This document shows positions 11,395 to 63,145 of a stretch of 64,000 bases of DNA, piece by piece (position 1 is the first letter of the stretch; every line of letters begins with the position of its first letter). The notes beneath the pieces are model-generated. The model was not told where the DNA came from. It saw only the letters and a list, made by a program, of their open reading frames with translations, and searched no databases. This DNA is from Flavobacteriales bacterium (GTDB lineage Bacteria; Bacteroidota; Bacteroidia; Flavobacteriales_E; Vicingaceae). The position numbers and the translations under genes are program-made. The stretch lies in NCBI GenBank assembly GCA_015075325.1, contig JABTUP010000001.1, forward strand, positions 186,001 through 250,000, read 5' to 3'.

Positions 11395-11886
11395 CTAAGA
11401 ATACACTTTTTTAAGCTGTTCAAAAACATCGGCAACGGCTGGGCATATCTCCGTGTTTTTTAACGATAAATCGAGAATTTGATAAAAGCGTTTTCGATTG
11501 GTGTGTGGATATTCACGACAAGCTGTTGGACGGCTTTCGTAAACAGTACAATAGTTTTCATAATCTAAAAATGGGCAAGGAGCGGTTCGCAAAACATAAT
11601 CGCCCACGTTGTCTTTTTGTAAATAACTAGCAATAAAAGCTGATGGTTTTATTCTTAAATGTTTTGCTAATCGGTCAATGTCTCGTTCATAAAAAGTAGG
11701 GCTGGTAGTTTTACAGCAATTAGCACATTGCAAACAATCAATTTTTTTAAAAACAGCTTCATGTGCTTGATGCGTAACATCATCTAAATTTTTAGGTTTA
11801 GTACGCTTTAGTTTGTTGTTCGTTTTAACCAACTCTTGCTTGTTTTGAGCCGCTAAATCCAATTTTTGTTGAAGTTCTTTTTTCAT
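11395..11886 (-). CDS. YkgJ-family cysteine-cluster protein
   Basis: A 163-residue soluble protein of the CxxCxxCC family, presumed to bind zinc or iron. Cysteines are seen in CLQCANCCKTT, CPFLDYENYC and RPTACREYP. The N-terminus (MKKELQQKLDLAAQNKQELV) is helical and charged. The frame is open seven codons further to 11907, but that part is formed by the upstream repeat, so ATG 11886 is preferred. The physiological role of the family is unknown. It lies downstream of mnmD on the same strand. Confidence 0.8.
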   Translation of the reverse strand: MKKELQQKLDLAAQNKQELVKTNNKLKRTKPKNLDDVTHQAHEAVFKKIDCLQCANCCKTTSPTFYERDIDRLAKHLRIKPSAFIASYLQKDNVGDYVLRTAPCPFLDYENYCTVYESRPTACREYPHTNRKRFYQILDLSLKNTEICPAVADVFEQLKKVYS

Positions 11887-11892
11887 TTTTTT

Positions 11893-11921
11893 CTCGCAAA
11901 GCCGCAAAGGACGCTAAGCCG
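11893..11921. repeat. CGCAAAG-type short intergenic repeat
   Basis: Units CGCAAAGC, CGCAAAGG and ACGCTAAG follow one another directly before the YkgJ-type start. The composition is more GC-rich than the surroundings. Confidence 0.45.
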
Positions 11922-11927
11922 TTTTTC

Positions 11928-11955
11928 TAATCACTAATTACTATTCACTAATCAC
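11928..11955. repeat. Heptad array overlapping the mnmD stop codon
   Basis: Four 7-bp units with period exactly seven (taatcac, taattac, tattcac, taatcac). The array encodes the last residues VISE and the stop of mnmD on the minus strand and runs toward the YkgJ-type gene. Confidence 0.6.
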
Positions 11956-12621
11956 TTTTACTGCCCTAATCATTTCTCTTTTTCCTGGAGGACCAGCCAA
12001 AGTTTCTAAATTAAATCCAACTTCTTTTATGGTTCGTTTTACCACTCCTTTTGCACAATAGGTGACCAAAACACCTTCTGGTTTAAGGGCTTTAAACATC
12101 GATTCAAAAACTTCTTTGGTCCACAACTCAGGTTGAATATTGGGAGCAAAAGCATCAAAAAATATCACATCAATACTATTCTCCAAAACCACATCCTTTA
12201 GCTCTTGATGAAGTTTAGTTAAGGTAAAATATTCATCTATTTCAACTACTTTGTTCCACTCTACTTCGTGTAATTTTAAAAATAACGATTGTTCGGATGG
12301 TATTAATTCCGAATAATTCAATTGTTGGATAATACTTAAATCTAAAGGATGAGCTTCTATCGAAATATAATCTATTTTCAATTGATGTTGTTTTGCAAAA
12401 AGGTGTGCCAAATGAGCATTTAAACCTGTTCCGAAACCAACTTCAAAAACTTTTAACTTTTTACAATTTGTTTTTACAATATAATCGTTCAATCCTCTTT
12501 GCATAAAAACATGCAAGGCTTCGTTAATTGCTCCTTTGGTTGAATGATAGGTTTCATTCAACTCTTTAACCAATAAAGTATGAGAATTATCGCCTGTTAT
12601 TTTAAATTCGAGATGAAACAT
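11941..12621 (-). CDS. mnmD: tRNA (5-methylaminomethyl-2-thiouridine) methyltransferase MnmD
   Basis: A 226-residue SAM-dependent methyltransferase, the stand-alone form of the methyltransferase half of MnmC, which finishes mnm5s2U at the tRNA wobble position. Motifs are the N-terminal GDNSHTLLV and LNETYHSTKGAINEALHVF, motif I KVFEVGFGTGLNAHLA, catalytic-site DVIFFDAFAPNIQPELW and the C-terminal AGPPGKREMIRA. The final codons and stop lie within a heptad repeat. The length is normal for MnmD. Confidence 0.9.
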   Translation of the reverse strand: MFHLEFKITGDNSHTLLVKELNETYHSTKGAINEALHVFMQRGLNDYIVKTNCKKLKVFEVGFGTGLNAHLAHLFAKQHQLKIDYISIEAHPLDLSIIQQLNYSELIPSEQSLFLKLHEVEWNKVVEIDEYFTLTKLHQELKDVVLENSIDVIFFDAFAPNIQPELWTKEVFESMFKALKPEGVLVTYCAKGVVKRTIKEVGFNLETLAGPPGKREMIRAVKVISE

Positions 12622-14912: not shown

Positions 14913-14954
14913 GCCTTTCGCCTTAAGCCTTTCGACTGTTTCCTAATGCCTTAT
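14913..14954. repeat. Heptad array downstream of the phospholipase-like gene
   Basis: Six 7-bp units in phase (gcctttc, gccttaa, gcctttc, gactgtt, tcctaat, gccttat) end 3 nt from the stop of the minus-strand gene at 14958. Confidence 0.55.
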
Positions 14955-14957
14955 AAA

Positions 14958-15953
14958 CTAGTCACATGCTCTACCTTTTGCTTTATCTTTTTCAAAAAGT
15001 TTGTCCAATTCTGTATCTTCTTTTATCAATTGTTCTGAAGGTTCTTTCCCCATCAAATCATTTAAATTGGGCTGACCAGCATTTACCCAAGCGGTGTACC
15101 AATAACTGCCCACCTTTATTATCGATTGTGTTAATCTTCTTTCCACCATGCCGTTTAGCATGTCGTGGTAGGCACTAGAATATTCTTCCGAATAGGTTTT
15201 CATTACCACAGTTCCTCTATTTTCAAAAGCATACTTTCTGTCGTTCGGAAATTCATTATTCAGTTTACGTTCCAAGTCTAAAACAGAATCTTTTGCAGCA
15301 AAACTTTCTCTAACCGATTGCCATTCGTCTTCTAAAATATCTTCAACATAAACGGCTCTTCCAACAAAATAATCATACTCTTTTGCTTTTAATTCTGGCA
15401 AACGCGATTCCCAAAAACCGTGTATTCCTTTTTGGTTGGTTAGTTGTCCGTTATAGTTTTTTGTGGTATGTAAGGGCACGTGCGAATCGCCAATGTAATG
15501 ACCTAAATCGGCAGAAACTCGAAGTATTTTATCTACATCTTTCTCTTCAAAAGCTTTGGTTAAACGCATTACCATAAGATTTACGTGCCAAGGAACTATT
15601 CCATAAGCTTGTAACGTATCTTCAGTAAATTTTTCAACGGCTTTAGTCCATGGTTTGGGAACGACATCAAATGGGTCTTCTCCATCTTTAACATAATGGT
15701 CTAAATCGATGTAATGACGAGGAGCTTCTCCTTCAACAGCGTATCTTCTTTTATCAGGATCAACAGCATGTTCGGTAATGTATTCAATGTTATTTTTGTA
15801 AAAGCCAATCATTTCAGGAGGCAAGGTAAAAACCGCCATTCGGTTTATTTTTTTATGACCGAAAAAACCCCAAGAGTACATGGCTGGTTGAAAAACAACT
15901 GCCAAAATCACAAAAAACAAAAGTCCAATAAAGTATTTGGTTATGAATTTCAT
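14958..15953 (-). CDS. Zinc-dependent phospholipase C / S1-P1 nuclease superfamily protein
   Basis: A 331-residue exported protein. A hydrophobic leader ends before YSWGFFGHKKINRMAVF; in this superfamily the first Trp and His of the mature enzyme are zinc ligands. Further candidate ligands are seen in RHYIDLDHY, DLGHYIGDSHVPLHTT and GIHGFWESRLPE, the order expected for the tri-zinc site. Substrate (phospholipid or nucleic acid) cannot be decided. A heptad array abuts its start codon on the upstream side and another follows its stop. Confidence 0.78.
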   Translation of the reverse strand: MKFITKYFIGLLFFVILAVVFQPAMYSWGFFGHKKINRMAVFTLPPEMIGFYKNNIEYITEHAVDPDKRRYAVEGEAPRHYIDLDHYVKDGEDPFDVVPKPWTKAVEKFTEDTLQAYGIVPWHVNLMVMRLTKAFEEKDVDKILRVSADLGHYIGDSHVPLHTTKNYNGQLTNQKGIHGFWESRLPELKAKEYDYFVGRAVYVEDILEDEWQSVRESFAAKDSVLDLERKLNNEFPNDRKYAFENRGTVVMKTYSEEYSSAYHDMLNGMVERRLTQSIIKVGSYWYTAWVNAGQPNLNDLMGKEPSEQLIKEDTELDKLFEKDKAKGRACD

Positions 15954-15956
15954 TTG

Positions 15957-15984
15957 TTGCTGGTTGCTTGTTACTGGTTACTAG
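15957..15984. repeat. Heptad array in the leader of the phospholipase-like gene
   Basis: Four units with period seven (gttgctg, gttgctt, gttactg, gttacta) lie 3 nt upstream of the start codon of the minus-strand gene. Confidence 0.55.
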
Positions 15985-16029: not shown

Positions 16030-16767
16030 CTACCCTTTCACAATTTTACCATTACTGAGTACAGGCACACTAGTAGATTTGTTCAATTTAAGACAATAAA
16101 TAATGTCTTCTTCTAGGTTTAACCTGCTCAATCTTTTTCGATGCGATGACTCACCTAAAAAACCATACATGTCGTCTTTTGCTGCATTGTATAATTTTAT
16201 TGCTGCTTGTGTTGAATCTGCCAAATCGGTAAACCGTAAATTTTGTGCTAATTTTTCTGCCAAGGCACCTGCAAACAAGGTATCTTCTAAGTTAAAACGG
16301 TCTTTCCAACCGGCACACAATAATATTACGTTTTTATCTTCACGCTCTATATATTCAGAAACTACATCTAAATTACTAAACGAACCTATAACTACTTTGT
16401 AAGCATCTTTTGCCATATCTATAGCTTTTGTTCCATTGGTAGTGGTTAACACAATGGTTTTACCAGCATGTTTTCCATCTTTAAAAAACAACGGTGAATT
16501 TCCAAAATCAAACCCTTCTACTACTTCAGCCGAACGTTCGGCACCAACAATAAATCCTTTTTGTTTGTAATCTATAGCTTCTTCAATTGTGGCAACAGGA
16601 ATAACAGCTTCAACACCACTATCAATAGCAGCACAAATAGCTGTGGTAGCTCTAAAAACATCAATAACTACTACCACACAATTTTTATCCTGAAAATATA
16701 CAGGAAACAACGCTGGAGAAAAGCAAACTTCTACTGTATTTGAAAATCCTGATGATTCTTCTCCCAT
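16030..16767 (-). CDS. comB: 2-phosphosulfolactate phosphatase family protein
   Basis: A 245-residue protein of the ComB family. It shows VVVIDVFRATTAICAAID, the segment GAERSAEVVEGFDFGNSP, TIVLTTTNGTKAID and ILLCAGWKDRFNLEDTLFAGAL. The founding enzyme removes phosphate from 2-phosphosulfolactate in coenzyme M synthesis; bacterial members occur without that pathway, so the in vivo substrate here is uncertain. It lies 79 nt downstream of gcvT with a heptad array in the spacer. Confidence 0.85.
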   Translation of the reverse strand: MGEESSGFSNTVEVCFSPALFPVYFQDKNCVVVVIDVFRATTAICAAIDSGVEAVIPVATIEEAIDYKQKGFIVGAERSAEVVEGFDFGNSPLFFKDGKHAGKTIVLTTTNGTKAIDMAKDAYKVVIGSFSNLDVVSEYIEREDKNVILLCAGWKDRFNLEDTLFAGALAEKLAQNLRFTDLADSTQAAIKLYNAAKDDMYGFLGESSHRKRLSRLNLEEDIIYCLKLNKSTSVPVLSNGKIVKG

Positions 16768-16774
16768 TTTCTTA

Positions 16775-16809
16775 AGTTGAAAGTTAAAAGTTGAAAATTG
16801 AAAGTTGTT
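16775..16809. repeat. Heptad array between gcvT and comB
   Basis: Five 7-bp units in phase (agttgaa, agttaaa, agttgaa, aattgaa, agttgtt) begin 7 nt upstream of the comB start codon. Confidence 0.6.
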
Positions 16810-16846
16810 TTACCAACCTTTCAATTTCAACCAAAAACGTAGTTTC

Positions 16847-17944: not shown

Positions 17945-17966
17945 AACTTTTTGATTTTAAAAGAAA

Positions 17967-17974
17967 CAAATGTA
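17967..17974 (-). promoter_or_regulatory. -7 promoter element for gcvT
   Basis: Minus-strand TACATTTG matches TAnnTTTG, 22 nt before the gcvT ATG. Confidence 0.5.
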
Positions 17975-17983
17975 GAATTTTAA

Positions 17984-18124
17984 AGTAGATTGTGGAATGT
18001 AGATTGTGGAAAGTTTTTAACCGTTATTCAGTTGTCAGTTTTCAGTTGTCAGTTTTCAGTTCACCCCCGAAAGTTTTCTGGGGCGGTCTTCCAACTTCGG
18101 TCTTCGGTCTTCGGTCTTCCAACT
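17984..18124. repeat. Compound heptad array with internal C-rich/G-rich palindrome
   Basis: From 17984 two 14-bp units occur, each GTAGAT+TGTGGAA-like. From 18028 to 18062 there are five TCAGTTN units, and from 18087 to 18121 five units of TCTTCGG/TCTTCCA type. Between the last two blocks lies a C5/G4 palindrome with A/T-rich core (18064-18083). It fills most of the 266-bp gcvT-pruA divergent spacer. Read on the minus strand the order is GAAGACC-type then GAAAACT-type, as at 40390-40459. Confidence 0.65.
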
Positions 18125-18210
18125 CTAAAAAACAGACTTGTAACTTGAAACGAGATTTAGTAATTTAGCCATCTTAAAATTTATCATTCACACATAAAAA
18201 TATAAAGCTC

Positions 18211-20898: not shown

Positions 20899-20947
20899 CA
20901 GTTCACAGTTCACAGTTTTCAGACTTCCATCTTCGGTCTTCCAACTT
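20899..20947. repeat. Heptad array filling the metG-rluB spacer
   Basis: Seven consecutive 7-bp units (including cagttca twice, cagtttt, cagactt, ccatctt, cggtctt, ccaactt). It starts 1 nt from the metG stop codon and ends 15 nt before the rluB start. Reverse-complemented, the order of unit types matches that of the array before rel. Confidence 0.7.
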
Positions 20948-39168: not shown

Positions 39169-40377
39169 ATGAAAGAAGCATTTATTGTTGATGCCGTAAG
39201 AACTCCAATTGGGAGTTTGGGTGGTTCGTTAGCATTAGTAAGAACAGATGATTTGGGAGCTCTGGTTATTAGCGAATTAATAAAAAGAAACCCCAATTTA
39301 GTTACCGAAGAAATTGAAGACGTTATTTTAGGTTGTGCCAATCAGGCTGGAGAAGACAACAGAAACGTTGCCCGTATGTGCGGTTTGTTGGCAGGATTGC
39401 CTTGGCAAGTAGGTGGCGAAACAGTTAACCGTTTGTGTTCTTCTGGTATGGCATCGGTTATTAATGCTTCCAGAGCAATAAAATTAGGCGATGGCGATGT
39501 TTACATTGCTGGAGGAGTTGAAAACATGACTCGCGGGCCGTGGGTAATTTCAAAATCATCAAAACCATTTGGAACCGATGTAGAAATGCACGATTCTACT
39601 TTTGGATGGCGATTTATTAACCCAAAAATGGCAGCATTATATGGTGTAGATGGCATGGGGCAAACTGCCGAAAATTTAGTGGATTTGTATAAAATTAGTA
39701 GAGAAGATCAAGACAAATTTGCCTACTGGAGCCAAATGAAAGCCACTACAGCTCAAAAAAATGGACGACTGGCTGAAGAAATTGTACCTGTAGCAATTCC
39801 GCAACGCAAAGGCGACCCAATACTATTTTCGAACGACGAATTTATAAAACCATCCACCACATTGGATGTGTTGGCAGGATTGCGACCCGCTTTTAGAAAA
39901 GAAGGTGGAACAGTAACAGCAGGAAATGCTTCTGGATTGAATGATGGAGCTGTTGCTGTGTTGGTTGCTTCTACCGATGCTCTAAAAAAATACAACATGA
40001 AACCAATAGCACGAATTGTTTCGAGTGCAATTGTTGGTGTAGAACCTCGTATTATGGGGATAGGCCCAGTTTATGCTTCAGAAAAAGCGTTAAAACGTGC
40101 AGGATTAACGCTTAACGACATGGATATTATTGAAATAAACGAAGCTTTTGCTGCTCAAAGTTTGGCTTGCACACGTAAAATGGGCTTGGCAGATAACGAC
40201 CCAAGAATAAATCCAAATGGAGGAGCAATTGCTTTAGGGCATCCGCTTGGAATGACAGGTGCAAGAATTTTACAAACGGCAGCGTTGGAATTACAAAAAA
40301 CCAACAAAAAATACGCATTAGTTACCTTGTGTATTGGTGTTGGACAAGGTTATGCAACTATTATAGAAAGAGTATAG
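39169..40377 (+). CDS. Thiolase (acetyl-CoA acyltransferase), 3-oxoadipyl-CoA thiolase-like
   Basis: A 402-residue thiolase. The nucleophile is Cys90 in VNRLCSSGMASV; the other catalytic motifs are EINEAFAAQ, GGAIALGHPLGMTGAR and CIGVGQGYA. Stretches such as VILGCANQAGEDNRNVARM and GWRFINPKMAALYG strongly resemble the PaaJ/PcaF group, which cleaves 3-oxoadipyl-CoA; fatty acid or general acyl-CoA thiolysis is also possible since no aromatic degradation genes are near. A TACCTTTA octamer at 39130 may be its promoter. Confidence 0.9.
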   Translation: MKEAFIVDAVRTPIGSLGGSLALVRTDDLGALVISELIKRNPNLVTEEIEDVILGCANQAGEDNRNVARMCGLLAGLPWQVGGETVNRLCSSGMASVINASRAIKLGDGDVYIAGGVENMTRGPWVISKSSKPFGTDVEMHDSTFGWRFINPKMAALYGVDGMGQTAENLVDLYKISREDQDKFAYWSQMKATTAQKNGRLAEEIVPVAIPQRKGDPILFSNDEFIKPSTTLDVLAGLRPAFRKEGGTVTAGNASGLNDGAVAVLVASTDALKKYNMKPIARIVSSAIVGVEPRIMGIGPVYASEKALKRAGLTLNDMDIIEINEAFAAQSLACTRKMGLADNDPRINPNGGAIALGHPLGMTGARILQTAALELQKTNKKYALVTLCIGVGQGYATIIERV

Positions 40378-40389
40378 AGTTAGATGCCC

Positions 40390-40459
40390 GAAGTTGGAAG
40401 TTGGAAGTTGGAAGATGGAAGCTGAAAACTGAGGACTGAGAACTGACACCTGAAGACTA
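40390..40459. repeat. Ten-unit heptad array filling the thiolase-rel spacer
   Basis: Exactly ten 7-bp units in one phase: three GAAGTTG, then GAAGATG, GAAGCTG, AAAACTG, AGGACTG, AGAACTG, ACACCTG and AAGACTA. It starts 12 nt after the thiolase stop and ends 4 nt before the rel ATG. Confidence 0.75.
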
Positions 40460-40463
40460 AAAA

Positions 40464-42674
40464 ATGGAAATCGATTTAGAAAAAGAGAAATTAGAGATAG
40501 AACAAGCTTTTCAAGCCATGCTTGAATCGGCTAAACATTGTAAAAAAACTCCCGAAAATTTAGCACGAATTAAAAAAGCTTTTGATGTAGCTTATGAAGC
40601 TCACAAAGATGTTAGAAGAAAATCGGGAGAACCTTATATTTATCATCCCATAGCTGTTGCACGTATTTGTACTGAAGAAATTGGCTTAGGAGCAACTTCA
40701 ATTATTTGTGCTTTGTTGCACGATACAGTTGAAGATACCGACCTTACTTTGGAAGATGTTGAGCGAATGTTCGGCAAAAAAGAAGCCCAAATTATTGATG
40801 GGTTAACTAAAATTTCAGACGTAGTGGATTTTAATGTTTCCATTCAGGCCGAAAATTTTAGAAAGATATTACTTACACTTTCGGAAGATGTAAGGGTTAT
40901 TTTAATAAAACTTGCCGATCGTTTGCACAACATGCGAACATTGGGTTCGATGAAGCGAGATAAACAACTAAAAATTGCTTCTGAAACATTGTTTTTGTAT
41001 GCTCCAATGGCTCACCGTTTGGGCTTACATAGCATGAAAACCGAATTGGAAGATTTGTCGCTTAAAATTCAAGAACCCGAAGCTTATGACGAAATTGTTA
41101 CCAAACTAGAAAAAACAGAGGAAGTACGCACACGATTTATCAAACAATTTTCGCTGCCCATTAAAAAAGCATTGGAGCAAAGCGGAATGAAATTCGAAAT
41201 TAAAGGTCGCCCTAAGTCGATTTATTCCATCTGGAATAAAATGCAAAAAAAACAAGTGCCTTTCGAAGAAGTTTATGACCTTTTTGCACTTCGAATAATT
41301 TTAGATTCTGAACCTCAAAACGAAAAAACAGATTGCTGGAGAGCTTATTCAATTGTTACTGATTATTACCAACCAAACATTGATAGATTAAGGGATTGGA
41401 TTTCAGCACCTAAAGCAAATGGTTACGAATCGCTTCATACAACAGTAATGAGTCCGACAGGAATGTGGGTAGAGGTTCAAATTAGAAGCAAACGAATGGA
41501 CGAAATTGCTGAAAAAGGATTCGCAGCACATTGGAAATACAAAGAAGGAGATCAGGAAAGTAGGTTTGATAAGTGGATTACACAAATCAGAGAATTGTTA
41601 GAAAATAACAATGCCGATGCACTTGAATTTATTGATGATTTTAAAATGAATCTGTACGACGATGAAATTTTTGTATTCACCCCTAATGGTGATATGAAAG
41701 GTTTGCCGTCGGGAGCAAGTGCATTAGATTTTGCTTTTGCAGTACATACCGAACTCGGTGTAAATTGTTTGGGAGCAAAGGTAAACAACAAATTAGTTCC
41801 ATTAAGTTACGAACTAAAAAGTGGCGACCAGGTTGAGATTTTAACCTCACACAACCAAAAACCAAAAGAAGATTGGTTGAATTTTGTTAAAACCCATAAA
41901 GCAAAAACTCGAATAAAAGCTTTTTTAAATGATGAGAAAAAAGAAACTGCCGATTTGGGTAAAGAAATACTAGAAAAAGAATTTAAACGATTAAAAATTG
42001 CCTATCAAAACATTAGTCTAAAAGAGCTTCAAAGTTATTATAAAGTTAGCTCTCCTACCGATTTATATTATCGAGTGGCAAAAGGAGAAATCGACTTAAA
42101 CCATTTAAAAGCATTTGAAGTTAAAAACGGTGTATTGCAGCCAAAACGTTCAATTAAAACAAGAGTTACCAGCTATTTAGGACAGCGATTAGTTAGAAAA
42201 GAGAAGAAAGAAGGAACTCCAAACGAAATGTTGGTAATTGGCGACAACATGCAAAAATTAGATTACCAGTTGGCAACTTGTTGCAACCCAATACCTGGTG
42301 ATGAGGTTTTTGGTTTTGTAACCGTAAACGAAGGAATAAAAATTCATAAAACAAAGTGCCCAAATGCTGTTCAGCTTTTGTCTAACTACGCTTACCGAGT
42401 AATTAAAGCCCGTTGGTTAGACGAACAAAAATTAGCATTTTTAGCAGGTATAAAAATATTAGGTATTGATGATGTTGGTATTGTTAACACCATTACACAA
42501 GTAATATCAAATGAGTTGCACGTAAACATGCGTTCTATTAGTTTTGATAGCAATGACGGTATTTTTGAAGGAATGATAACGGTTTTTGTTCACGATACTG
42601 AACATTTAAAAAACCTAATCAAAAAACTAGAAAAAATAAACGGTGTTACTCGAGTTGAACGAGTAGATAAATAA
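40464..42674 (+). CDS. rel: RelA/SpoT-family (p)ppGpp synthetase/hydrolase
   Basis: A 736-residue long Rel enzyme controlling the stringent response alarmone. Domains in order: HD hydrolase (YIYHPIAVARI, ALLHDTVEDTD, LIKLADRLHNMRTL), nucleotidyltransferase synthetase (GRPKSIYSIWNKM, RLRDWISAPKANGYESLHTT), TGS (FVFTPNGDMKGLPSGASALD) at about 395-455, a zinc-finger-like region with CCNPIPGDEVFGF, and a C-terminal ACT domain (MRSISFDSNDGIFEGMITVF). The hydrolase motif is intact, so it is likely bifunctional. Its leader is a heptad array. Confidence 0.94.
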   Translation: MEIDLEKEKLEIEQAFQAMLESAKHCKKTPENLARIKKAFDVAYEAHKDVRRKSGEPYIYHPIAVARICTEEIGLGATSIICALLHDTVEDTDLTLEDVERMFGKKEAQIIDGLTKISDVVDFNVSIQAENFRKILLTLSEDVRVILIKLADRLHNMRTLGSMKRDKQLKIASETLFLYAPMAHRLGLHSMKTELEDLSLKIQEPEAYDEIVTKLEKTEEVRTRFIKQFSLPIKKALEQSGMKFEIKGRPKSIYSIWNKMQKKQVPFEEVYDLFALRIILDSEPQNEKTDCWRAYSIVTDYYQPNIDRLRDWISAPKANGYESLHTTVMSPTGMWVEVQIRSKRMDEIAEKGFAAHWKYKEGDQESRFDKWITQIRELLENNNADALEFIDDFKMNLYDDEIFVFTPNGDMKGLPSGASALDFAFAVHTELGVNCLGAKVNNKLVPLSYELKSGDQVEILTSHNQKPKEDWLNFVKTHKAKTRIKAFLNDEKKETADLGKEILEKEFKRLKIAYQNISLKELQSYYKVSSPTDLYYRVAKGEIDLNHLKAFEVKNGVLQPKRSIKTRVTSYLGQRLVRKEKKEGTPNEMLVIGDNMQKLDYQLATCCNPIPGDEVFGFVTVNEGIKIHKTKCPNAVQLLSNYAYRVIKARWLDEQKLAFLAGIKILGIDDVGIVNTITQVISNELHVNMRSISFDSNDGIFEGMITVFVHDTEHLKNLIKKLEKINGVTRVERVDK

Positions 42675-52827: not shown

Positions 52828-53348
52828 TTTCAGGAATACATAAAGGAAAGGCTATTCAAGCTCCTAAAAACTTACCCGTAAGACCAACTACCGATTTTGC
52901 GAAAGAAGCTTTGTTTAATATTATTGAAAATAACTTTGAAATTGACGAACTAGATGTATTGGATTTATTTGCTGGAACAGGAAATATTACTTACGAATTT
53001 GCATCGCGAGGAGCAAAAACCGTAACAAGTATCGACCAAAACTCGAATTGTTACAACTTTATAAAACGAACTACAAAAGAATTGAATTTCGATTCAGTTC
53101 AGGTGTTTAGAGCTGATGTTTTTAAATTCTTGCACAACCACAAAAATCAATATGACTTTATTTTTGCCGACCCACCGTTCGACCTAAAAAACATTCCTGA
53201 AATTGCTCAATTGGTTTTCGATAATAATATATTAAAAGAAAATGGCTGGTTGGTAATTGAACACGATAAACGTACCGACTTTAGTAAACATCCCAACTTT
53301 CTACAACATCGTAAATACGGGCACGTAAACTATAGCTTTTTTGGGTGA
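52818..53348 (+). CDS. rsmD: 16S rRNA (guanine966-N2)-methyltransferase RsmD
   Basis: A 176-residue SAM-dependent methyltransferase that modifies guanine 966 of 16S rRNA. It shows MRIISGIHKGKAIQAPKNL, RPTTDFAKEALFNII, motif I VLDLFAGTGNITYEFASRGA and catalytic motif IV as FADPPFD. The start is GTG at 52818, inside the DUF3822 gene. The stop TGA falls in the first unit of a heptad array. Confidence 0.93.
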   Translation: MRIISGIHKGKAIQAPKNLPVRPTTDFAKEALFNIIENNFEIDELDVLDLFAGTGNITYEFASRGAKTVTSIDQNSNCYNFIKRTTKELNFDSVQVFRADVFKFLHNHKNQYDFIFADPPFDLKNIPEIAQLVFDNNILKENGWLVIEHDKRTDFSKHPNFLQHRKYGHVNYSFFG

Positions 53349-53421
53349 TGAGTATTGAGTGATGGGTATTTTGTGAACTGAGAACTGATTACTATAAACT
53401 ATGAACTGACTACTAATAACT
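53343..53421. repeat. Heptad array filling the rsmD-MATE spacer
   Basis: Four units of GGGTGAT/GAGTATT type, a 2-base phase slip, then seven units ending in ACT (gtgaact, gagaact, gattact, ataaact, atgaact, gactact, aataact). It begins at the rsmD stop and ends 2 nt before the MATE ATG. Confidence 0.7.
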
Positions 53422-53423
53422 AA

Positions 53424-54755
53424 ATGACTAAACTCTATTCCTATAAAACCATTTGGCAAATAGCTTTTCCAATTATTATTAGTGGAATTGCTCAAAATGT
53501 GGTAAATGTTACTGATACTGCTTTTTTAGGTCAGGTTAGTAATGCTGCCATGGGAGCAGCAGGAAATGCAGGTATTTTTTATTTTGTTTTAATTATTACC
53601 GGCATGGGTTTTACCACTGGAGCTCAAATAATAATAGGACGAAGAAATGGAGAAAACAACCCACTAGAAATTGGAAAAATTGTTGACCATGCATTTTACT
53701 TTATAATACCATTAGCAGTTCTGCTTTTTGGATTGGTACAGCTTTTCTCACATCATTTTTTTAATGCTATTGTACAATCCGAAACTATTTTAGTTTTAGC
53801 TAATGATTTTACCAAAGTCCGAATTTGGGGTATTTTGTTTGCTTTCTTAAACTTCACATTCATAGCTTTTTATGTGGGTATTACCAAAACTAAAATTTTG
53901 AGTTATGTAACCATTGTAATGATGTTGGTAAATGTAGTACTCGATTACGTACTTATTTTTGGTCACTTTGGTTTTCCCGAAATGGGCGTTAAAGGAGCTG
54001 CTTTAGCTTCGGTTATTTCTGAAGGTTGTGCCTTTTTGTTTTTTTTAATTTACACCATCAAAACCGTCGACCTCAACAAATACGATTTGTTTGGGTTTAA
54101 ACCCTTCAATTTATCCATACTATCGCGTATGTTTAATGTGAGCTTTCCCATCATGTTACAAAACTTTTTATCGCTCAGTTCTTGGTTTATCTTTTTTATG
54201 ATTATTGAAAAAATGGGGGAAGACGAATTAGCCATTTCACACATTGTTCGAAGCATATACATGGTACTGATGATTCCATTGTTCGGTTTTAGTAACGCAA
54301 CCAACACCTTGGTAAGTAATTTAATTGGTGAAGGACGGAGCAACGAAGTACTCTCCATGATTAAAAAAATAATTTGGATGAGTTTAGGATTTACGTTTAT
54401 TCTCTCATTCATTAGCTTTTTTATTCCCGAATTTTTAGCCAGCTTTTACACCTCAAATGCTGATATAATTGTTAGAACAGCAGAATCGCTACACGTAATT
54501 AATTTCACCATGTTTTTCTTTTGCATTTCGTTTATCCTTTTCAATGGAGTAACAGGTACGGGTAACACCAGAACTTCGATGGTAATTGAGGCAACAAATA
54601 TTGTTATTTATTTGTCTTCTGCCTACTTTATTGCCATTGTATTAAAATCAAGTTTACCTGTGGTTTGGGCTTCCGAATTTATCTACTTTGGGTTTTTAGG
54701 CTTGTTTTCTTATCTTTATTTAAAATACGGAAACTGGAAAAAGAAAAAAATTTAA
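53424..54755 (+). CDS. MATE family efflux transporter
   Basis: A 443-residue inner-membrane protein with twelve predicted helices in two similar halves, the MATE arrangement. The N-terminus IWQIAFPIIISGIAQNVVNV and AFLGQVSNAAMGAAGNAG, plus the second-half counterpart FPIMLQNFLSLSSWFIFFM, are typical. It exports cationic compounds or drugs against Na+ or H+. Substrate unknown. Transcription may continue from rsmD through the heptad spacer. Confidence 0.9.
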   Translation: MTKLYSYKTIWQIAFPIIISGIAQNVVNVTDTAFLGQVSNAAMGAAGNAGIFYFVLIITGMGFTTGAQIIIGRRNGENNPLEIGKIVDHAFYFIIPLAVLLFGLVQLFSHHFFNAIVQSETILVLANDFTKVRIWGILFAFLNFTFIAFYVGITKTKILSYVTIVMMLVNVVLDYVLIFGHFGFPEMGVKGAALASVISEGCAFLFFLIYTIKTVDLNKYDLFGFKPFNLSILSRMFNVSFPIMLQNFLSLSSWFIFFMIIEKMGEDELAISHIVRSIYMVLMIPLFGFSNATNTLVSNLIGEGRSNEVLSMIKKIIWMSLGFTFILSFISFFIPEFLASFYTSNADIIVRTAESLHVINFTMFFFCISFILFNGVTGTGNTRTSMVIEATNIVIYLSSAYFIAIVLKSSLPVVWASEFIYFGFLGLFSYLYLKYGNWKKKKI

Positions 54756-54789
54756 AGAAGCAAAGCTTTTTAAAAAAGCTTTGCTTCTT
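54755..54789 (+). terminator. Long stem-loop overlapping the MATE stop codon
   Basis: A 17-bp perfect stem AAGAAGCAAAGCTTTTT and its complement with almost no loop, beginning at the last base of the stop codon. No T-run follows, so termination strength is uncertain. Confidence 0.65.
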
Positions 54790-58283: not shown

Positions 58284-60941
58284 ATGTCGGTATATAAAAA
58301 AGTTGCCATAACCTTTTCCATCATCATTTCTTTACTGTTTGGTGCTGGATGGTACATTTCGTCTGTTTACGAAGATGAAGTTAAGAACTTTATTTTATCC
58401 GAAATAAACAACCGCCTAAACACCAAAGTGGACATGGAGGAAATTAATTTCTCCGTTTTTAAAAAATTTCCTTACGCCTCGTTAGAATTAAAAAATGTTC
58501 GTGCCGATGAAGTAATATCGAAAGAAAAAAAAGACGATTTATTTAAAATTAAATCCATTTTTCTGCAGTTCAACATCATTGACATCATTAAAGAAAACTA
58601 TACCATTAAAAAAATTGCAGTTGAAGATGGTTTTATTAATTTATCTATCGACAAAAAAGGAAACGATAATTTCCATTTTTGGAAAAAAGACACCGCTCAA
58701 ACTGCAAATGCTTTTCAAATAGAACTATCAAAACTCGATTTTGAAAACATTTCCATTTCAATGGTTAACGATTTTAAAAAACTCGATTTTTTTGTTTTGG
58801 TTGACCAACTCAATTTATCAGGAAATTTTTCAGATAAAGACTACACGCTTAACACCGATGCGAAATTGCTTTTACAAGAACTCAATAGCAACAACCAAAA
58901 ATGGATAAAAAATAAAAAAATAAAGTTGTCTACTGCATTAGCTGTAAATCAAGAAACAGGAAAATACACCATAGAAAATGGTAAGGTTGCAATTGAAGAT
59001 TTGAGTTTCAACTTATCGGGAAATTTTATCGACAAGAAAAATTATACGGTTTTAGACATTGTATCGAAAGGTAACAACCTATCAATTGAATCTATTTTTT
59101 CGTTATTTCCACCCGAACAACAAGAAAAATTAAAATCGTATAAAACAACAGGAGACATTACGTACAACGCAAACATAAAAGGAAACTATTCATTTACCGA
59201 AAGCCCCAATTTTGAAGCTTCATTCAGCATTTTAAACGGAGAAATTGTAGAGCAAAACTCTGAATTATCGTTAACACAATTGAGCGTAAATGGAAGGTTT
59301 ATTAACGTAAAAAGCAATCCCACAAAATTAGAATTGAAAAATTTTAATGCCAATTTTGGTGCTGGTCACATTGCCGGAGATTACACTATTACTGATTTAA
59401 ACAATCCTCATGTGGTTTTAAAATCGGTTGCAAATATTGATATTTTGTCGGCAAAAAGTTTTTTTAAAATTGACACCCTTGAACTTGCCGAAGGAAAACT
59501 CGAATTAAATATCGAATACAACGGATACATTAGTGAATTGAGCAATATAAAAGCACAAGATTTGCAAAAATTAGCTGCAACAGGAAATGTAAAACTTTCC
59601 GAAACCAATTTAAAGCTAGTTAACTATCCTCATTTGCTTTCCAATTTAAATGCTTCATTTCAGTTTAACAACAACGAAATAATTATCGACTCGCTTCAAA
59701 CCAACTTTAATAAAAGTGCAATTTCGTTAAACGGAAGTTTTAAAAACCTGTTGGCATACCTTTTTATCGAAGACCAAAAACTATTGGTAAATGCTAATTT
59801 TCATGCAAAAAAAATTATTCTTGATGATTTGTTGACGAGTAACAACAATACTAAAAACAATAACGATTATAGTTTAATTCTTCCTCAAAACATTTCATTT
59901 CAACTCAATACAAAAATTGATTCATTTTATTTTAGAAAATTTGAAGCCAAAAATTTTTCCTCACAACTTAAACTTCACAACAAACAATTTACTGCTTCCA
60001 ACATTCAGTTTAACGCCATGCAGGGTTCAGCAAAGGGCGAACTTTACATTGATGAATCAGACAGTACTAAAACCATTATAACCAGCACCGCAAATCTGGA
60101 AAACATAAACATAAATCAACTGTTTTATCAATTTGAAAACTTCGGGCAAAACTACTTTGTTGCTGAAAACATTAAAGGCAATGTTAGTTCAGCAATTCAA
60201 TTTGCATCTGTTTGGGACAAAAATTTAAAACTCAACAAAGATAAACTTTACGTTTTAGCCGATTTAACCATAAAAAAAGGAGAGTTGATTAACTATAAAC
60301 CTGCTTTGGCTTTGAGTAAATTTATTGAAATAAATGAATTGGAACACATTAAATTTTCGACCTTACAAACACAATTAGAAATAAAAAATCAAATCATATC
60401 TATTCCAAAAACAGAAATAAAATCATCGGCATTAGATTTAACCATTTCTGGAACACACACGTTCGACAACGAAATTGACTATCGTTTTAAATTATTAATG
60501 AGCGATGTGTTATGGAAAAAGGCAAAATCGAAAAAGAAAGAAAACTCAGAATTCGGTTATGAAGAAGAAGATGGCTTAGGTAAAGCAGTACTGTTTTTAA
60601 GAATGACTGGAACAGTTAAAAACCCGAAAATTAGCTACGACACCAAAAGTTTAAAAGAAAAATGGAGCGATGATATTAAAGAAGAAAAACGAACCTTAAA
60701 ACAGATTTTAAAAGATGAGTTTGGTTGGTTTAAAAAAGACAGCACACTTACCGACCCCAAAAAACCTAAAAAAGATGGATTTTTAATTGAGTGGGAAGAA
60801 GATACGAGAAAGTCGGAAGTGGGAAGTTCGAAGACCGAAGACCGAAGTGGTAAGCCAGAGGAGAAAAAAGGCTTAGGAAAACTTATAGATAAGATTGCCA
60901 AACCTGATGCTGAAGAGTACGAAGAAAGTGATGATTTTTAA
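58284..60941 (+). CDS. AsmA-like / AsmA C-terminal-domain protein
   Basis: An 885-residue envelope protein with an N-terminal membrane anchor (KVAITFSIIISLLFGAGWYI) and long beta-rich body of the AsmA/TamB/VPS13-like type. The early segment LNTKVDMEEINFSVFKKFPY and ASLELKNVRAD is typical of AsmA family members in Bacteroidota, as is LSGTHTFDNEIDYRFKLLMS near the end. Such proteins bridge membranes and are linked to phospholipid transport. The C-terminal tail (about residues 842-858) is encoded by a heptad array and is likely disordered. Confidence 0.85.
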   Translation: MSVYKKVAITFSIIISLLFGAGWYISSVYEDEVKNFILSEINNRLNTKVDMEEINFSVFKKFPYASLELKNVRADEVISKEKKDDLFKIKSIFLQFNIIDIIKENYTIKKIAVEDGFINLSIDKKGNDNFHFWKKDTAQTANAFQIELSKLDFENISISMVNDFKKLDFFVLVDQLNLSGNFSDKDYTLNTDAKLLLQELNSNNQKWIKNKKIKLSTALAVNQETGKYTIENGKVAIEDLSFNLSGNFIDKKNYTVLDIVSKGNNLSIESIFSLFPPEQQEKLKSYKTTGDITYNANIKGNYSFTESPNFEASFSILNGEIVEQNSELSLTQLSVNGRFINVKSNPTKLELKNFNANFGAGHIAGDYTITDLNNPHVVLKSVANIDILSAKSFFKIDTLELAEGKLELNIEYNGYISELSNIKAQDLQKLAATGNVKLSETNLKLVNYPHLLSNLNASFQFNNNEIIIDSLQTNFNKSAISLNGSFKNLLAYLFIEDQKLLVNANFHAKKIILDDLLTSNNNTKNNNDYSLILPQNISFQLNTKIDSFYFRKFEAKNFSSQLKLHNKQFTASNIQFNAMQGSAKGELYIDESDSTKTIITSTANLENININQLFYQFENFGQNYFVAENIKGNVSSAIQFASVWDKNLKLNKDKLYVLADLTIKKGELINYKPALALSKFIEINELEHIKFSTLQTQLEIKNQIISIPKTEIKSSALDLTISGTHTFDNEIDYRFKLLMSDVLWKKAKSKKKENSEFGYEEEDGLGKAVLFLRMTGTVKNPKISYDTKSLKEKWSDDIKEEKRTLKQILKDEFGWFKKDSTLTDPKKPKKDGFLIEWEEDTRKSEVGSSKTEDRSGKPEEKKGLGKLIDKIAKPDAEEYEESDDF
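60808..60856. repeat. Heptad array inside the AsmA-like coding sequence
   Basis: Seven in-phase units (gaaagtc, ggaagtg, ggaagtt, cgaagac twice, cgaagtg, gtaagcc) of the same type as the spacer arrays. They are translated as RKSEVGSSKTEDRSGKP. Confidence 0.65.
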
Positions 60942-62896: not shown

Positions 62897-63070
62897 ATGA
62901 ACTACAATTTAGAAGAAAGAAAGTACAACGAAATTGCAAAATTGATTGAAAGCGATGGACCTGTAGGAATTGATGCAAAAAAAACACACATCATTATTAT
63001 CAATGCTTTGGCTGAATTACATACAAAAATTGATAAGTTAGAAAAAGAAATTGCTGAGTTGAAAAAGTAG
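62897..63070 (+). CDS. Small coiled-coil protein, 57 residues
   Basis: A short frame starting ATG at 62897 and ending TAG at 63068. It begins MNYNLEERKYNEIAKLIESD, continues with GPVGIDAKKTHIIIINALAE and ends with a heptad-type helix (LHTKIDKLEKEIAELKK). Two helices joined by a short turn are likely, with the last forming a leucine-zipper-like dimer. Codon use is normal for this genome, and the protein has a clear hydrophobic core. The last codon is the TAG of the TAGAGAC palindrome. Real gene by coding character; function unknown. Confidence 0.6.
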   Translation: MNYNLEERKYNEIAKLIESDGPVGIDAKKTHIIIINALAELHTKIDKLEKEIAELKK

Positions 63071-63145
63071 AGACAGATGATTATCTGTCTCAAAAATAAG
63101 ACAATTAACTATCTCAAAAATAAGACGCATAATTATGCGTCTCTA
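63068..63145. repeat. TAGAGAC...GTCTCTA paired palindromes, copy C
   Basis: A 78-bp segment with palindrome GAGACAGAT/ATCTGTCTC at the left and GACGCATAATTATGCGTC (63124-63141) at the right. It starts with the stop codon of the 57-residue gene and contains the stop codon of convergent folD. Confidence 0.7.

Follow-up and report, generated by a model that had tools for sequence, protein, structure and literature searches.

Degenerate heptamer arrays at gene edges in a Flavobacteriales genome, probably expanding simple-sequence repeats copied between loci

Known heptamer repeats and the arrays of the window

Cyanobacteria carry dispersed intergenic arrays of heptamers, the short tandemly repeated repetitive sequences (STRR), whose units are few and well conserved. 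The first-pass annotation of the window (the whole 64,000-nucleotide stretch analyzed here, G000:C1:186001-250000, from a low-GC draft genome of 3.32 Mb) named STRR as the analogue of a family of degenerate 7-bp arrays. The analogy is sound in that both are dispersed intergenic heptamer arrays, whereas the units described here drift and stand in order. The same annotation knew of no described function in Bacteroidota, which overlooks the TAACTGA arrays, mixed with other heptamers, of five Bacteroidetes (MacGregor 2015, PMC4679880). These direct repeats also occur in marine Beggiatoaceae and Cyanobacteria; they are intergenic, in Beggiatoaceae mostly forward and ending a few nucleotides before start codons, and their presence among relatives is patchy, the longest Bacteroidetes arrays being missing from close relatives (PMC4679880). 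The arrays of the window genome (G000) and of its array-bearing congener G001 resemble them in having an AACTGA core, an intergenic position, sometimes mixed heptamers and a patchy presence, since two further congeners, G002 and G003, are array-free. In contrast to perfect head-to-tail TAACTGA repeats, beside which related heptamers are rarely repeated, units with the AACTGA core are here mixed with AAAACTG, GTGAACT, GAAGTTG and many unrelated heptamers. The units are degenerate and diverse and stand in two zones of fixed order; the arrays are found in every gene orientation and also within ORFs, and at a given site their unit type differs between congeners.

A second described group comprises the GGGAATC repeats of Xanthomonas and the GGGGA(C/T)T repeats of Nostoc, in which the G-rich strand is the coding strand just after stop codons and the non-coding strand just before start codons; their neighbors belong to general metabolism, and sites are common to several species with variation in length and sequence (PMC4692102). 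The arrays studied here share the heptamer period, the placement rule, the general-metabolism neighbors and the cross-species sites with variation. They differ in their units, which are near-uniform and G4-forming in Xanthomonas and Nostoc, whereas GAAG, ACTG and many other units found here have no G-runs. As cited in both papers (PMC4679880, PMC4692102), Mrazek (2007) reported over-abundant heptanucleotide repeats in prokaryotes and proposed slippage over the 7-nt contact of the polymerase. To judge from these citations, that survey sought long simple repeats, and degenerate, drifting arrays may largely escape it. No publication on GAAG-type arrays in Flavobacteria turned up in the literature searches. 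Since TAACTGA repeats, mixed heptamer assemblages and a heptanucleotide excess have already been described, the broad class is known; the features that seem to be new are a polar composite of two zones, a wide range of units within a single genome, the replacement of units at one and the same site from congener to congener, and a skew rule that links composition to start codons.

The arrays of the window and the genes flanking the focal array are listed in Table 1. Gene borders were taken from a simple codon-usage gene finder, and the closest relatives of the rel product were found in uncultured Flavobacteriales/Bacteroidetes genomes (87-90% protein identity). The array at 11928 overlaps the 3' end of ORF 11941-12621(-) and precedes ORF 11395-11907(-); a related unit order occurs at C1:104360. 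On the minus strand, the array at 18028 consists of GAAGTTG/GAAGACC units (18084-18124) followed by ACTGACA/ACTGAAA units (18028-18061), with a CCCC..GGGG hairpin between the zones. The rluB-metG array reads GAAGTTG, GAAGACC, GAAGATG, GAAGTCT, then GAAAACT, GTGAACT, GTGAACT, GAAAACT, while the focal array contains GAAGTTG three times, GAAGATG, GAAGCTG, AAAACTG, AGGACTG, AGAACTG, ACACCTG and AAGACTA.

Table 1. Heptamer arrays of the window and genes flanking the focal array (scores out of 28 are matches at lag 7).
Position	Strand	Feature	Evidence
11928..11955	-	Heptad array, CTAATCA/CTAATTA units (GTGATTA-type on - strand)	20/28, reached by 0/2000 shuffles
14913..14954	.	Weak heptad array GCCTTTC/GCCTTAA, between convergent genes, by stop of ORF 14958-15953(-)	18/28, P=0.0025
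15957..15984	-	Heptad array GTTACTG/GTTGCTG, immediately before start of ORF 14958-15953(-)	20/28, P=0.0005
16775..16809	-	Heptad array AGTTGAA (TTCAACT on coding strand), immediately before start of ORF 16030-16767(-)	23/28
17984..18011	.	Perfect 14-bp repeat in two copies (GTAGATTGTGGAAT), double the heptad period	Repeat finding
18028..18124	-	Two-zone array between gcvT(-) and aldehyde dehydrogenase gene(+), divergent	24/28; TRF 14-bp period 100%
20899..20947	-	Two-zone array, metG stop (20949) to start of rluB-like gene	22/28
39169..40377	+	Thiolase gene, upstream of focal array	Pfam Thiolase_N/C
40390..40459	+	Focal two-zone array, thiolase stop (40377) to rel start (40464)	26/28
40464..42674	+	rel (RelA/SpoT) gene, downstream of focal array	Pfam HD_4, RelA_SpoT, TGS, ACT_4
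53343..53421	+	Array before MATE gene, GGGTGAT/GAGTATT units then GAACTGA/AACTAAATG	20/28, P=0.0005
60808..60856	+	GAAGTGG/GAAGACC heptad array within ORF 58284-60941	23/28

The window also contains a 24-bp repeat in two copies (63080-63126, 91% match) beside a pair of 21-bp repeats (63027-63067). After the MATE gene lies a perfect long palindrome with a T-tail (54755-54789, AAGAAGCAAAGC...GCTTTGCTTCTT); it is scattered, on either strand, over several places of G001 and also occurs on one contig of G003.

Periodicity and shared order of the units

At each of the nine loci for which strict 7-bp periodicity had been proposed, the lag-7 signal exceeded that of 2,000 dinucleotide shuffles (P <0.0005 to 0.0025); at lags 5, 6 and 8-11 it did not rise above background. 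Ten segments of the window showed at least 20/28 matches at lag 7, against 0-3 at non-harmonic lags. The wider scan for 7-bp autocorrelation suggested by the first-pass annotation, made over 863 kb of stretches (26% of G000), yielded 42 intergenic lag-7 segments; the harmonics 14, 21 and 28 gave 24, 14 and 8 segments and other lags 0-8. Equal autocorrelation in shuffled spacers had been named as grounds for dismissing the arrays, and here 26 spacers reached at least 21/28 lag-7 matches compared with 0.27 in shuffles. Genome-wide, GAAGTTGGAAGTTGGAAG at up to 3 mismatches gave 107 matches versus 7 for the reversed pattern, and AACTGANAACTGANAACTGA gave 99 versus 10. As expected of heptanucleotide simple-sequence repeats, period 7 exceeded both other periods and shuffles. 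That the arrays arise by chance or from assembly can hardly be credited: the assembly is a draft of low GC, but the shuffle, other-lag and reversed-pattern controls and the independent recurrence in G001 refute it. These results confirmed that the heptamer arrays are real.

The first account of them was, however, too narrow, since the units include many heptamers unrelated to one another and some of the arrays sit within ORFs. Besides GAAG and ACTG types, the arrays of G000 are built of CTAATCA, GTTACTG, AATTGAT, TATTTGC, TTTTGTG, GGCGTTA, AAACATT, TTCTAAT and other units, which behave in the same way. At C1:115169 and C12:129003 of G000, near-identical CAGTAACCAGCAAC heptad stretches (AACGCTAGCAACCAG...) were placed in coding DNA by the gene finder.

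The proposal that arrays share an order of unit types was borne out. Among distinct ordered sites, counted by hand from match listings, GAAG..GAAG preceded ACTG..ACTG at 11 sites in G000 versus 0 with the reverse order, and at 22 versus 1 in G001. The order runs from GAAGTTG/GAAGACC through GAAGACT to GTGAACTG/AAACTAA, and the in-register composite is GAAGTTG-GAAGACC-GAAGTTT-GAAGACT-GTGAACT-GTGAACT-GAAAACT-AA. When 64 arrays were compared with one another, 13 had a best cross-match of at least 24, compared with 2-6 after permutation of the units, so that order exceeds chance. Since the cross-match depends on unit order, copying between loci probably covers several heptamer families. In a survey of 395 genomes of the class, the composite was seldom found in register elsewhere, GAAG-to-ACTG occurring in genus g4 and a few others. 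Of the reverse-order matches outside the genus, most are ACTGAAG units of ambiguous type or chance matches that are out of register; the ordered composite is thus common only in G000 and G001. Heptamer arrays with GAAGTCG, GAAGCTG/GAAGCCG and GAAGAGA units were seen in genomes of other families of the class (G023, G026 and G019, respectively), those of G023 and G026 being without an ACTG zone.

With respect to gene orientation, 11 ordered arrays are co-oriented with both neighboring genes, 7 lie between convergent genes, 6 are antisense to both and 0 lie between divergent genes. As the order is also found in antisense and convergent settings, start codons downstream do not dictate it, and it is a property of the repeat lineage. 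Nor do the array-free congeners, whose rel spacers measure 4 and 35 bp, support the suggestion that order reflects a leader function.

A composite of fixed polarity, dispersed over at least 33 loci in two species and with an inter-locus similarity that depends on unit order, might alternatively be a miniature element of the REP or MITE kind, moved by a transposase and then locally expanded. Other dispersed palindromes are also present in the spacers. Nevertheless, no terminal inverted repeats, fixed ends or target duplications were visible by eye in 67 oriented copies, other heptamers behave alike without the GAAG-to-ACTG composite, and neither Y1_Tnp nor reverse transcriptase genes track array abundance among 31 genomes. 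We therefore regard such an element as unlikely. The Y1_Tnp protein (RAYT) was rejected as a REP-type mover, strong Y1_Tnp matches being also found in the array-poor G003, G024 and G030, and reverse transcriptase as an array maker, its distribution among the 31 genomes not matching the arrays.

Comparison with congeners and placement relative to genes

About 100 GAAG-type matches were found in each of G000 and G001, compared with 2 each in G002 and G003, and lag-7 segments in comparable stretches numbered 8, 8, 1 and 1 (G000, G001, G002 and G003). The array-bearing spacers of G000 measure 54-86 bp, while those of G002 and G003 are mostly far shorter (-5 to 49 bp, mostly <35). The thiolase-rel spacer has 86 bp in G000, 4 in G002 and 35 in G003; the MATE spacer 75 bp versus 49 in G002 and 8 in G003; the spacer of the array at 15957 has 76 bp in G000, 45 in G001, 0 in G002 and 19 in G003; and that of the array at 16775 has -1 bp in G002 and 34 bp in G003. 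Promoter-type spacers are of equal length in all four genomes and without arrays. The divergent gcvT/aldehyde dehydrogenase spacer (17945-18210) is an exception, being long in all four genomes.

In G001, the same gene pairs often enclose an array of other units, an inverted array or one split by an insert. CAGTTTA/CAGTCTTC units stand in place of the CTAATCA units of 11928, GTTTAAA/GTTTCGG units in the spacer of 16775, and GAAGTCG/GAAGACC then GTGAACT..ACTAAATG before the MATE gene. The gcvT/aldehyde dehydrogenase spacer has GAAG then ACTG on the opposite strand, the rluB-metG array keeps both ends around a palindromic insert of about 100 bp, and the counterpart of ORF 58284-60941 contains a different GAAG array at the matching place. 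CCCCTCC...GGAGGGG palindromic elements were observed nested in or beside GAAG arrays at the G001 rluB-metG site (L129) and at L085 and L007 of G000. Between thiolase and rel, where G000 has the focal array, G001 has an additional ORF (L115:5213-5814), by eye a putative YdeI/DUF1801-type gene. When G001 was compared with an 88%-identical species, the spacer after rel was unrelated and its flanks aligned. In a table of 18 orthologous spacer pairs, arrays co-occurred in G000 and G001 in 5/7 versus 2/11 cases (threshold 17, one-sided P ~0.04), which is only suggestive of shared presence above chance. Such sharing could mean that selection keeps the array; old age or tolerance of the site would predict the same.

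Arrays had been described as filling spacers from stop to start codon. This is nearly so before rel (40378-40463) and MATE, but the median array takes up 52% of its spacer. The claimed position before start codons is likewise partly upheld. Among arrays in co-directional spacers, 29 of 45 lie within 15 nt of a start codon, compared with 18.2 expected from random placement of arrays in those very spacers; on the stop side, 20 arrays versus 18.3 expected lie near the stop. Ordered arrays are, however, also found antisense, between convergent genes and in ORFs, and in the window the arrays at 60808 (in an ORF), 14913 (convergent, by a stop) and 18028-18124 (divergent) depart from the start-side pattern. 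In some cases array units provide the stop codon of an ORF. The GAAG end of arrays follows a sense stop codon at a median distance of 4 nt (n=34); in antisense arrays its median distance from the start codon is 56 nt (n=14; P=6e-6).

Composition also differs between the two gene ends. Coding-strand GC skew of start-touching arrays, all unit types included, was -0.46 versus -0.13 in controls (P=3e-5), while that of stop-touching arrays was +0.12 versus -0.05, which is not significant (P=0.06); the two groups differ from each other at P=2e-5. In leaders that consist of arrays, A makes up 50% and G 4.5% of the bases, compared with 43% and 9.6% in other leaders. In Flavobacterium johnsoniae, which has no Shine-Dalgarno sequences, A at -3, -6, -12 and -13 promotes initiation and A-3G is especially harmful (PMC6847099). 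From their composition, we infer that the start-side arrays have passed a translation filter.

The genes beside arrays are ordinary housekeeping genes, namely rel, metG and MATE in the window and rpsH, atpG, nuoA, coaD, gmk, folB, ribE, lepA and lpxC elsewhere, and no common functional class was found among the genes examined. Together with the enrichment within 15 nt of starts and the A-rich, G-poor leaders, the location of arrays ahead of rpsH, atpG and other housekeeping genes would fit a post-transcriptional regulon, in which a protein (S1, a cold-shock or a CsrA-like protein) would bind the repeated sites of the leader array and so tune translation of the next gene; MacGregor's proposal for TAACTGA repeats is a precedent (PMC4679880). 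However, unit order is unchanged in antisense and between convergent genes, arrays occur within ORFs, units are very diverse, another unit may occupy the same site in G001, arrays are absent with tiny spacers in G002 and G003, and the last unit of ordered arrays has no fixed distance to the start codon. A regulon of this kind is thus improbable. Promoter and terminator scans revealed no excess around the focal array, and an Rfam search of the window gave no match. RNA folding gave z values near 0 for the rel and rluB arrays and -3.5 only for the 16768-16846 spacer; no common structure was found, and most arrays fold no better than shuffles. A structured RNA leader or riboswitch was rejected, with no Rfam match and no stable conserved fold.

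Long GAAG/CTTC hairpins were observed at L011, L209, L028, L128 and L119, one being followed by a T-run in the manner of a terminator. The first four of these hairpins, and the 4-nt median distance past sense stop codons, are what would be expected if G-rich GAAG blocks acted after translation stop, for example as transcription terminators or protectors of RNA ends. Against this, most arrays are without an inverted partner and fold no better than their shuffles, and many stand inside operons, in front of rpsH or atpG for instance, where it would be detrimental to stop transcription. Such a function is very unlikely.

Origin and persistence of the arrays

Taken together, these features suggest, with a probability of roughly 0.6, that the arrays are lineage-specific, expanding heptamer simple-sequence repeats copied between loci, and not a dedicated control element. 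On this reading they are tolerated repeat DNA that spread recently, changes fast and is shaped by the demands of neighboring start codons. Whole 7-bp units would be gained and lost through slippage or unequal exchange. Exact higher-order repeats of 14 and 21 bp in the window speak for growth by 7 bp at a time. In another phylum, whole-unit change in copy number is directly seen on Enterobacter IncFIB plasmids, where the AAAACTG array that precedes a DUF1778/GNAT operon comprises between 5 and 11 copies, with 0 differences over 200 nt of flank on each side. That array is two-zoned (AAAATCGAAAAACTG then AAAACTG), and on the Enterobacter hormaechei plasmid p4-20710 (L270:1496-1569) it is a perfect (AAAACTG)10.6; Buttiauxella has a different 12-bp array at this place. 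It was the sole plasmid match, and no match was found in the phage vectors searched. It resembles the arrays described here in the AAAACTG unit, the position between genes, the two zones and the whole-unit copy changes, but it is a single locus of near-perfect units.

Arrays, including the ordered GAAG-to-ACTG composite, would be copied between loci, for example by template switching between heptads; this is suggested by the order common to many unrelated loci. Selection would decide which copies survive: arrays would be kept where a spacer has no conserved content or a protein stretch is tolerant. Next to a start codon, persistence would be limited to A-rich, G-poor units, since initiation in Bacteroidota requires adenines and does not involve Shine-Dalgarno pairing, whereas the G-rich GAAG units would be tolerated immediately after stop codons. 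The start-side enrichment above random placement is also a prediction of leader function, and it counts against this explanation by repeat expansion and copying. A more speculative and quite unlikely extension is a dispersal system that copies and extends heptamer arrays into gene edges in some Flavobacteriales. Such a system would follow a strand rule, the G-rich strand pointing away from gene ends, which is also seen with other, unrelated heptamers in Xanthomonas and Nostoc, and a putative dedicated enzyme with a 7-nt step would explain the period, the polarity and the same-site replacement of units.

An excess of heptamers in scattered bacteria has been noted for decades without an explanation of its period or of its closeness to gene ends. 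The genus studied here is a natural experiment, with two species full of arrays, two without, and matching gene pairs. Their comparison shows that the arrays are added DNA, that the units at a site are replaced faster than arrays come and go, and that composition beside start codons follows a known rule of Bacteroidota initiation. The origin of the arrays (7-bp step and copying) and their selection (translation) can thereby be tested separately.
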